NCBI RefSeq assembly: GCF_004919685.1
Contig: NZ_SMYZ01000022.1
Location: forward strand, 1-64,000
Direction: 5' to 3'
Source of the DNA: Mesorhizobium norvegicum
Lineage (GTDB): Bacteria > Pseudomonadota > Alphaproteobacteria > Rhizobiales > Rhizobiaceae
Length of the DNA: 64,000 nucleotides
Shown here: positions 50,472 through 51,841 of the stretch, one piece after another
Position numbering within the stretch: the stretch's first letter is position 1
How the letters are laid out: each line of letters begins with the position of its first letter
The notes under the pieces: generated by a model
Told to the model about the DNA's origin: nothing
The model's input: only the letters and a program-made list of their open reading frames with translations
Databases searched by the model: none
Translations under genes and position numbers: made by a program

Positions 50472-50682
50472 TGTCGTCCTGACGGCCTGCCTGACGATCA
50501 TCCGGCGAAGGCACGGGTTGATGCTGCAGTGCGAAAATGACCATGGCACGGACCGCCATGGTTTACGAGCAAATTAGAAACCGGTTGAAAGCGATCCGCT
50601 GACGGCGGCAGCCGTCGCTAACCCCTTGCAGTCGGGCGGTTCTCTTGTTTCACTTCACTTCCCACATCAGGAGGAACGAATC

Positions 50683-50808
50683 ATGGCTAAAGGTGCGATG
50701 AAGGCAGGCAAGGAAGCCCGCAAGCCGAAGAAGGACGCCAAGAAGCCCGCCCCGGCTCCGGCCCTGAAAGCGCCGCCGGTCAAGGCGATGAAGCTCAAGG
50801 ACAAGTAA
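50683..50808 (+). CDS. Small lysine/alanine/proline-rich basic protein
   Basis: A 41-residue protein, MAKGAMKAGKEARKPKKDAK then KPAPAPALKAPPVKAMKLKD, with about 13 lysines and no acidic cluster. AGGAGG seven bases upstream of the ATG gives strong support. It resembles small basic rhizobial proteins sometimes annotated as hypothetical; nucleic-acid binding is plausible from charge alone. A hairpin follows 31 bases after the stop. Confidence 0.75.
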   Translation: MAKGAMKAGKEARKPKKDAKKPAPAPALKAPPVKAMKLKDK

Positions 50809-50839
50809 GTCCGGCCCTATCCGCTTCGGAATAAGATTA

Positions 50840-50864
50840 CGACCGGCAACACTGTTGCCGGTCG
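50840..50864 (+). terminator. Hairpin after the basic small protein
   Basis: Perfect inverted repeat CGACCGGCAAC-ACT-GTTGCCGGTCG. No strong T-run follows, only CTGTTG, so it may be a Rho-assisted or weak terminator separating this gene from the sugE leader. Confidence 0.6.
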
Positions 50865-50901
50865 CTGTTGATCGAGCGCCCGAAATTCCTATATTGGCGT
50901 G

Positions 50902-50950
50902 GCGGGGACGACCTCGCGCTTCCCCAAAAATCCGGACGGGACGACCTGCC
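50902..50950 (+). ncRNA. Guanidine-II (mini-ykkC) riboswitch candidate
   Basis: Two short hairpins each carry the same loop. P1 is GCGGGG-ACGA-CCTCGC (50902-50917) and P2 is CGGG-ACGA-CCTG (50937-50948). Tandem hairpins with ACGR loops are the definition of mini-ykkC RNAs, which bind guanidinium and control guanidinium exporters. It lies 68-116 bases upstream of sugE, a known guanidine-II target. Rfam scanning was not possible. Confidence 0.85.
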
Positions 50951-50961
50951 ATTGTTTGACT

Positions 50962-51001
50962 GAGCGTCGGACACCGAAAATCACTTTTCGGTCCGACGCT
51001 C
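50962..51001 (+). promoter_or_regulatory. Long hairpin between riboswitch and sugE start
   Basis: A 17-pair stem with a two-base bulge and TCAC loop: GAGCGTCGGA/TCCGACGCTC outer and CCGAAAA/TTTTCGG inner. It ends five bases before the sugE GGAG. No T-run follows, so it looks like an expression-control stem rather than an intrinsic terminator. Confidence 0.65.
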
Positions 51002-51017
51002 TGATGGAGCGTTGTCG

Positions 51018-51332
51018 ATGTCGTGGATTCTTCTCTTTTTTGCCGGCCTGTTCGAGATCGGCTGGGCAATCGGCCTCAAATACACGGACGGCTTCTCGAA
51101 GCTGGTGCCGACCGTGCTGACCGTTGCCTCGATGGTTGTCAGCCTCACTCTGCTGGGCCTGGCGCTGAAGGCGCTGCCCGTCGGTACCGCCTATGCGGTG
51201 TGGACCGGCATCGGCACCGTCGGTACGGCACTGCTCGGCATCTGGCTGCTCGGCGAGCCGGCCACCGCGATCAGGCTGGCCTGCATCGCGCTCATCGTCT
51301 GCGGCATCATGGGGCTGAAGTTCGCCGCCTGA
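51018..51332 (+). CDS. sugE: Guanidinium exporter SugE/Gdx (SMR family)
   Basis: Small multidrug-resistance-family protein of 104 residues with four helices. The start [23 protein letters not shown], with Glu13, and the [26 protein letters not shown] segment are typical of SugE/Gdx rather than EmrE. The ATG at 51018 has GGAG eight bases upstream. With the ACGR-loop leader, guanidinium export under guanidine control is the best reading. Confidence 0.93.
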
Positions 51333-51412
51333 GCATAGCGGCAGACGAACACGTTCAGGGCCGCTGTGAGGCGACCCTGATTCTCGAAGCAGATTGCTTC
51401 GTAGCCTGGAGG

Positions 51413-51841
51413 CTAGCGGGCCGAGAAGCCCGGAGGCGTCCTGCCGGTGCGCTGCTTGCGCGCTGCATAACGCGCGTCGCGCTTGGCCTTGCGTTCGGCT
51501 TCGTCGGCCAGAAAACGGGCGATGCGCTCGTTCTCTTCGGATTCCCGAATCTTGGCCTCAGCCTGCGCAGCTTCCTCGGCGGCGATACGTGCCGCCTCGG
51601 CTGCTGCCTCGCGCTCGGCCTTCTCGACCGCTTCGCGTGCCAGCTTTTCCTGCTTCAGCCGGGCCTTTTCGGCCTCGCGGATTTCGCGAGCCTCGAGGAT
51701 CGCCTTGCGTTCGGCCTGCCGCGCCAGCACTGCGGGATCATCCGCCGCCGGCTTTGCCTTGAAGCGCTCGAGGAGCGCCTTCTTTGCCTCGTTTGCGGCG
51801 TTGCGCCGCTCGAAAACGTCTTTTTCCCTGTAGATAGCCAA
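51413..51841 (-). CDS. DUF6481 coiled-coil protein
   Basis: Highly charged protein of 142 residues, nearly all coiled coil, rich in Ala, Glu, Arg and Lys. The opening FERRNAANEAKKALLERFKAK and PAADDPAVLARQAERKAI match the DUF6481 family. No ATG is available: I use TTG at 51841, with GGGAAG eight bases before; a GTG at 51847 is the alternative. Function unknown; it lies in convergent orientation to sugE. Confidence 0.75.
   Translation of the reverse strand: MAIYREKDVFERRNAANEAKKALLERFKAKPAADDPAVLARQAERKAILEAREIREAEKARLKQEKLAREAVEKAEREAAAEAARIAAEEAAQAEAKIRESEENERIARFLADEAERKAKRDARYAARKQRTGRTPPGFSAR

Follow-up and report, generated by a model that had tools for sequence, protein, structure and literature searches.

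Does the leader of the gdx (sugE) gene of Mesorhizobium norvegicum carry a guanidine-II riboswitch and, if so, which part of the RNA would cover the ribosome-binding site? The locus is on the forward strand of 64,000 nucleotides of assembled DNA (contig NZ_SMYZ01000022.1, positions 1 to 64,000), which are referred to here as the window. The initial annotation had noted two short hairpins with identical ACGA loops upstream of a gene for a SugE/Gdx-type exporter and had proposed a guanidine-II (mini-ykkC) candidate, to be scanned with the Rfam model RF01068. Judged from its sequence, the site almost certainly is a guanidine-II riboswitch ahead of gdx, ordinary and well placed. The reading as a whole, in which the element serves gdx as a translational ON switch, is very probable.

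Both hairpins, P1 and P2, are present (Table 1). P1 possesses the six pairs, including one G-U, that had been ascribed to it, and P2 possesses four as described, one of which is a G-U pair that went unmentioned. The stems are separated by 19 bases and not by the 20 originally given. The P2 stem can be extended past a bulged A by two G-C pairs (GG, 50934-50935, with CC, 50949-50950), and the loops of P1 and P2 both read GACGAC, which is an ACGR loop with a G-C closing pair. A scan of the entire window with Rfam 15 at curated cut-offs returned two matches, one tRNA and RF01068 (Guanidine-II, mini-ykkC). The latter scored 32.8 bits against a gathering score of 32, with E = 0.0093 for the whole 64-kb window and 7.3e-05 for the surrounding 501 bases, and the proposed class assignment is thereby upheld. 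The Frameshift element (RF01785) and Xoo2 sRNA surfaced in permissive Rfam scans with scores far under cut-off and were discarded. No second RF01068 match at E <= 0.001 was found in the 8.27 Mb genome. A search for paired ACGR hairpins (ACGR caps, one stem of at least six pairs and the other of at least four, loops 22-45 apart) had a single result on the + strand of the window and no result on the - strand, and 40 first-order Markov sequences of 64 kb contained no such pair. The thresholds were chosen after the site was known, and the covariance-model score is the fairer measure.

The downstream gene is of the SugE/Gdx type, as annotated. Its product scored 139.3 bits with the SugE equivalog model NF008512 (cut-off 126) and also matched PF00893. 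The best match among solved structures was 6wk5 (105 bits, compared to 38 bits for EmrE), whose sequence is identical to that of 6wk8, which is Gdx-Clo (PMC9000954). Three residues that the available text of the same article lists as conserved across the Gdx subtype, W16, S42 and K101 (Gdx-Clo numbering), are all present in the product in an ungapped alignment to 6wk5. The product also shares E13, A17, M39, Y59 and W62 with Gdx-Clo, among which E13, Y59 and W62 are binding-site residues. As the ATG at 51018 aligns with residue 1 of Gdx-Clo, a TTG at 51012 was rejected as the start codon. By these matches the product is an SMR transporter of the Gdx subtype, with predicted guanidinium export.

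Table 1. Features of the gdx leader and gene, numbered from the first nucleotide of the window.
Feature	Position	Strand	Basis
Sigma-70-like promoter, TTGATC-16-TATATT	50868-50895	+	One found versus 0.2 expected in shuffles
Guanidine-II riboswitch aptamer (RF01068)	50900-50949	+	Covariance-model match
P1 hairpin, GCGGGG-ACGA-CCTCGC	50902-50917	+	Hairpin-pair search; compensatory change in relatives; varied standard pairs 4-6
Linker between P1 and P2	50918-50936	+	Sequence; GCTTC at the 5' end could pair with GGAGC
P2 hairpin, CGGG-ACGA-CCTG	50937-50948	+	Folding; hairpin-pair search
P2 strand pairing with 51002-51016 in the ligand-free fold (GACGAC/GTTGTC, CT/AG, CCATTG/TGATGG)	50940-50954	+	Minimum-energy fold
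P3, additional hairpin 3' of P2 and 5' of the Shine-Dalgarno sequence, 10 + 7 pairs	50962-51001	+	Fold z; covariation
Shine-Dalgarno sequence, GGAG	51006-51009	+	Sequence; invariant in the 43-leader alignment
gdx (sugE), SMR-family predicted guanidinium exporter, 104 amino acids	51018-51332	+	Matches to NF008512, PF00893 and 6wk5

Conservation of the element was followed in relatives. RF01068 was detected at E <= 0.001 in 120 of 146 Mesorhizobium genomes, and over the cut-off in 113 of the 146; in a sample of the family the values were 113 of 247 genomes and 58 of 109 genera. A gdx protein match (E <= 1e-20) was present in 142 of the 146 genus genomes, eight of which possessed merely a more distant SMR protein (E 1e-24 to 1e-26). 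The 134 matches below E 1e-40, together with that of the window itself, furnished 135 gdx leaders, and the eight genus genomes with weaker best matches fell outside this set. Absence of an Rfam hit and of conserved ACGR loops among relatives had been named beforehand as refuting the proposal, which withstood this test: besides the RF01068 match, two ACGR hairpins were retained in 123 of the 135 leaders, with ACGA in both loops in 109 of these. The other 12 included leaders in which a single loop or arm was altered, and in a few no aptamer was visible. At one further locus (L283, genome G056) the RF01068 match has ACCA as P1 loop in a genome without a gdx match at E 1e-20; this aptamer possibly is a remnant after loss of gdx.

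Covariation among sugE leaders, which also had been suggested as a check, was evident for P1 and not for P2. One P1 pair was changed on both sides in 1 of 43 aligned genus leaders. Over 200 leaders from within and outside the genus, P1 pairs 4-6 comprised varied standard pair types, the first three pairs being standard by leader selection; the fourth pair from the loop, for example, was G-C in 161, C-G in 17, A-U in 15, G-U in 5 and another combination in 2. P2 was nearly invariant, with none of six pairs changed on both sides in the 43 genus leaders.

The initial annotation had left open whether translation or transcription would be controlled, and the evidence favors translation. The + strand in 50640-51420 contained no terminator-like site, and the 3' side of P3, an additional hairpin between P2 and the Shine-Dalgarno sequence, continues with TGATGG and has no T run; intrinsic termination was rejected on these grounds. 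The promoter-like site ends at 50895, six bases 5' of P1, and CCTATAT is part of the majority consensus in the 43-leader alignment. An inverted repeat of 12 pairs (50839-50865) is located between a small lysine-rich open reading frame (50683-50808) and this promoter-like site. In some other genus leaders (e.g., L218) the equivalent place reads as a terminator with a T run, directly before the TTGAT box.

A course of events can be proposed from these elements. Transcription would start just 5' of P1 because the promoter-like site is positioned there. In the presence of guanidinium, P1 and P2 would kiss through their ACGA loops and hold one guanidinium ion each, as is known for the class, thereby keeping P2 closed and the ribosome-binding region free. 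Without guanidinium, P2 would open and its loop and 3' strand, together with CCATTG, would pair with TGATGGAG-C-GTTGTC, which would hide the Shine-Dalgarno sequence. P3 would sit inside this OFF helix and bring its two halves together. Guanidine-II riboswitches are regarded as translational ON switches in the accessible part of PMC12186494, and from class and anatomy the ON direction and translational control are both highly likely here. As to the exact mechanism, a P2-based switch is plausible, and the chance that P2 is the covering strand is put at about even.

In the minimum-energy fold of the leader the P2 loop, the P2 3' strand and CCATTG (50940-50954) are paired with TGATGGAGCGTTGTC (51002-51016), and the resulting helix encloses P3 and covers the Shine-Dalgarno sequence. 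The z score of this fold was -3.02, with 1 of 200 shuffles as good, and in the free ensemble of the window leader the Shine-Dalgarno sequence was paired to P2 with a probability of 0.95. The pairing was assessed comparatively in a duplex test of 199 leaders, in which the ribosome-binding region was matched against P2, the linker and the 5' flank while the Shine-Dalgarno core and first codons were fixed and the remainder was shuffled; one family leader without a detectable Shine-Dalgarno sequence was left out. Values were averaged over 42 groups, into which duplicates and leaders of the same genus were merged. Duplexes between P2 and the ribosome-binding region gave a mean z of -0.80 (t-test, p 2e-4; 28 of 42 groups negative), which was -0.74 without Bradyrhizobium, whereas the 5' flank gave +0.24 (16 of 42 negative). 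Moreover, in all 10 random picks P2 fitted the ribosome-binding region of its own group more closely than the regions of other groups (p 0.0015 to 0.0135). The extreme was Bradyrhizobium (z -3.08, 13 leaders): in several of its leaders (L101, L108, L111 and L117), GGGTCGTC before the start codon exactly complements GACGACCC of P2, and nowhere else is the case that P2 covers the ribosome-binding site as clear. The long Mesorhizobium leaders gave a mean z of -0.63.

The principal competitor for this role is the linker. In a model put forward for E. coli (PMC9300104 and PMC7544219, in the portions available), the linker is the anti-Shine-Dalgarno strand; it would act here through pairing of GCTTC (50918-50922) with GGAGC (51006-51010), and would be pulled off when the loops kiss. 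The complementarity is present in the window sequence, and in the free ensembles of 26 genus leaders that are short between P2 and the start codon the linker accounts for 0.34 of Shine-Dalgarno pairing, compared to 0.27 for P2. In the 97 long leaders, by contrast, the linker takes 0.05 and P2 0.32, and the duplex energy in the window is -10.7 kcal/mol for the linker versus -19.5 kcal/mol for P2. Linker duplexes were no better than shuffles across the 42 groups (mean z -0.04, 20 of 42 negative), although the Shine-Dalgarno core was fixed and the GCTTC:GGAGC pairing therefore is outside this test. Overall, the linker is rather unlikely to be the covering strand in this leader, and P2 rather than the linker may cover the ribosome-binding site across the guanidine-II class.

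Several results weigh against a riboswitch that operates through P2. The RF01068 score surpasses its cut-off by merely 0.8 bit, and 26 of the 146 Mesorhizobium genomes lack a match at E <= 0.001. In the window alone the P2 duplex reached a z of -1.62 (P 0.07). When the helix between P2 and the ribosome-binding region was inspected for covariation, 0 of its 14 pairs were changed on both sides, and it was rejected as a covarying helix. Forcing the aptamer costs 10 kcal/mol in the window leader (7.9 in the ensemble); as this is a large amount for a kissing loop, the switch may need to be set during transcription. Furthermore, forcing the aptamer lowered mean Shine-Dalgarno accessibility within the genus, from 0.30 to 0.24 in the 97 long leaders (a rise in 7 and a fall in 30) and from 0.28 to 0.16 in the 26 short leaders (a rise in 4 and a fall in 16). 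Ensemble folding thus did not yield thermodynamic proof in the genus that the Shine-Dalgarno sequence is released upon aptamer formation. The AUG became freer in the same ensembles (0.49 to 0.56 in the 97 long and 0.50 to 0.75 in the 26 short leaders), and in the window leader both values rose (Shine-Dalgarno sequence, 0.05 to 0.10; AUG, 0.37 to 0.73). In 70 leaders from outside the genus, mean Shine-Dalgarno accessibility increased from 0.20 to 0.29, with a rise in 27 of them and a fall in 9.

The most distinctive attribute of the leader is P3, which is present between P2 and the Shine-Dalgarno sequence in 97 of the 123 genus leaders, including that of the window. The distance from the P2 loop to the start codon is 51-110 bases in these 97 leaders and 26-36 bases in the other 26; the window has 77 because P3 intervenes. 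Outside the genus the distance is 25-40 bases in 49 named leaders among the matches listed and 23-39 in 22 of 24 family leaders, the remaining two (149 and 153 bases) preceding an AtpB-like gene. Jointly, 71 of the 73 leaders from outside the genus have P2 23-40 bases 5' of the start codon, one leader being common to the named and family sets. The named set derives from at least 80 loci: two ACGR hairpins lay no more than 160 bases from the start indicated by the match in 53, 26 lacked such a pair under this criterion, and one (L136) was dropped as its match starts at residue 13. The family set was not drawn at random and consists of the 28 loci that scored best with RF01068, of which four had no assigned start and 24 were used. 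Among the leaders examined, P3 is confined to Mesorhizobium, and by outgroup comparison without a tree it looks to have been gained within the genus. P3 was rejected as a mobile repeat, since a genome search at E < 0.01 recovered no further copy of its sequence; weaker matches were to its own inverted arm (E 0.011) and to three stretches of 19-22 bases (E 0.08-0.97).

The stretch from P2 to the start codon folds better than shuffles, with a mean z of -2.31 over the 97 long leaders (56 below -2) and a z of -5.96 in the window. Among 43 aligned leaders, a subset of the 97, six of the ten outer pairs of P3 have changes on both sides. The covariation score of the ON structure in these 43 was 0.142, compared to 0.124 (standard deviation 0.005) in shuffles, a control in which relatedness still is contained. 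The double-sided changes argue against the suggestion that P3 is a plain insulator or degenerate terminator outside the switch and that the aptamer of this strain is decaying, whereas the wide variation in P3 length between leaders would suit an insulator. Decay is favored by the low RF01068 bit score and by the G-U at P2 pair 3, which among the 123 genus leaders is found in the window alone. However, 12 leaders outside the genus set have the same G-U (13 of 200 overall), and the window retains an intact P1, two intact loops and an intact promoter-like site. This combination of insulator and decay is very improbable.

A different role for P3 was considered in which its 3' strand (GATGCTC; GACGCTC in the window) would exchange between the P3 5' strand (ON) and AGCGTT over the Shine-Dalgarno sequence (OFF). 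In the consensus fold of the 43 leaders, P3 is indeed replaced by this fourth helix (columns 139-144 with 153-158), and in forced-aptamer ensembles of five leaders (L150, L153, L160, L163 and L166) the Shine-Dalgarno sequence pairs at 0.80-0.92 with the stretch from P2 to the Shine-Dalgarno sequence that holds the P3 3' strand. Against this, P3 of the window persists in both free and forced folds, no pair of the fourth helix is changed on both sides compared to six of ten for P3, and the helix has no apparent link to P1 and P2 through which guanidinium would be sensed. The exchange is improbable, if somewhat less so than insulation with decay. A P2-based switch accommodates P3 in another manner: the Mesorhizobium platform would be a derived one in which P2 covers the ribosome-binding site, P3 has been inserted inside the OFF helix, and an aptamer with its P2 loop 77 bases from the start codon still exerts control. 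This arrangement is advanced tentatively, at somewhat less than an even chance.

Guanidine-II aptamers also were observed ahead of other genes in relatives. At least 26 of the 247 family genomes contain a second ATP synthase subunit a gene, matched over the full query from residue 1 with 70-93% identity, and an RF01068 match is situated 18-226 bases upstream of it on the same strand in 25 of the 26 among the matches listed; the pairing was compared by eye between tables, and the query was an aptamer-linked atpB copy. In the 26th genome (G216), two ACGR motifs were located upstream by a simple search. Three further genomes have more than one match (G233, G242 and G373). The aptamer-linked second copies include L284 (G030), L285 (G061) and L302-L308, and L284, L302 and L303 continue with an SMR gene that is preceded by a separate aptamer. 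Seven aligned second copies and the two in the genus (G030 and G061) read RPxSHSVRLFAVMLAGH where five canonical copies read RPxSLSVRLFANMLAGH. The changes, L to H and N to V, are three residues before and four after the arginine of SVRLF, presumably the essential arginine of subunit a. The pattern suggests a guanidine-induced, perhaps guanidine-tolerant F0 subunit. No report of guanidine-II or mini-ykkC elements with ATP synthase or atpB was found in the literature, as covered by titles and the beginnings of abstracts. The genome of the window has a single AtpB match among the matches listed.

Aptamers in L049 and L056 precede a transporter gene of the chlorhexidine-efflux type (Pfam BTP, PF05232, in L049), which is taken here to belong to the PACE family. 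Those in L035 and L052 precede a membrane-like protein of ~384 residues with EADELAHQLGEPYGTLILT, the first 90 residues of which, in L035, have no Pfam match. Those in L037, L057 and L288 precede a DUF1989-like protein, presumably urea-carboxylase-associated; a 90-residue piece of the L037 protein scores below the Pfam cut-off.

From its sequence, this Mesorhizobium soil bacterium appears to carry the usual means to sense and expel the toxic ion guanidinium. The 123 natural leaders within one genus form a set that can serve to discriminate between the models proposed for the guanidine-II expression platform, and if P2 covers the ribosome-binding site, the smallest guanidine riboswitch would control translation alike in short and long leaders. 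The gdx switch may be of less consequence than the aptamer found in relatives before a second gene for ATP synthase subunit a.

The class already is annotated in the genus: in the available text of PMC5596092 (Table 1), a 135-base RNA-seq product of M. huakuii 7653R covers the mini-ykkC element MH_s35. MH_s35 is of the same Rfam family and genus as the element described here and, in contrast, is given there with an Rfam label and coordinates, and no mechanism or leader structure. A literature search by title and abstract opening located no paper dedicated to a guanidine riboswitch in Mesorhizobium, and no description of P3 was found in the portions of the guanidine-II literature searched, though an earlier one is possible. 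The RF01068 leaders of E. coli and P. aeruginosa resemble that of M. norvegicum in two ACGR hairpins with a short linker near the ribosome-binding site of an SMR exporter gene. The distance from the P2 loop to the start codon differs, at 77 bases here versus the 25-40 of the named leaders. For P. aeruginosa a P0 helix has been proposed and is supported by mutants, according to the available text of PMC9561414. A close parallel is Gloeobacter violaceus, for which Huang et al. (2017; PMC5486947) proposed a stem loop that overlaps P2 as well as the ribosome-binding site and is incompatible with the folded aptamer; the P2 helix in M. norvegicum follows the same principle. The accessible part of that article mentions no further hairpin and states that the distance varies in the class. 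Thus, the covering of the ribosome-binding site by P2 is not a new idea, and what is added here is comparative support for P2 and the P3 hairpin.
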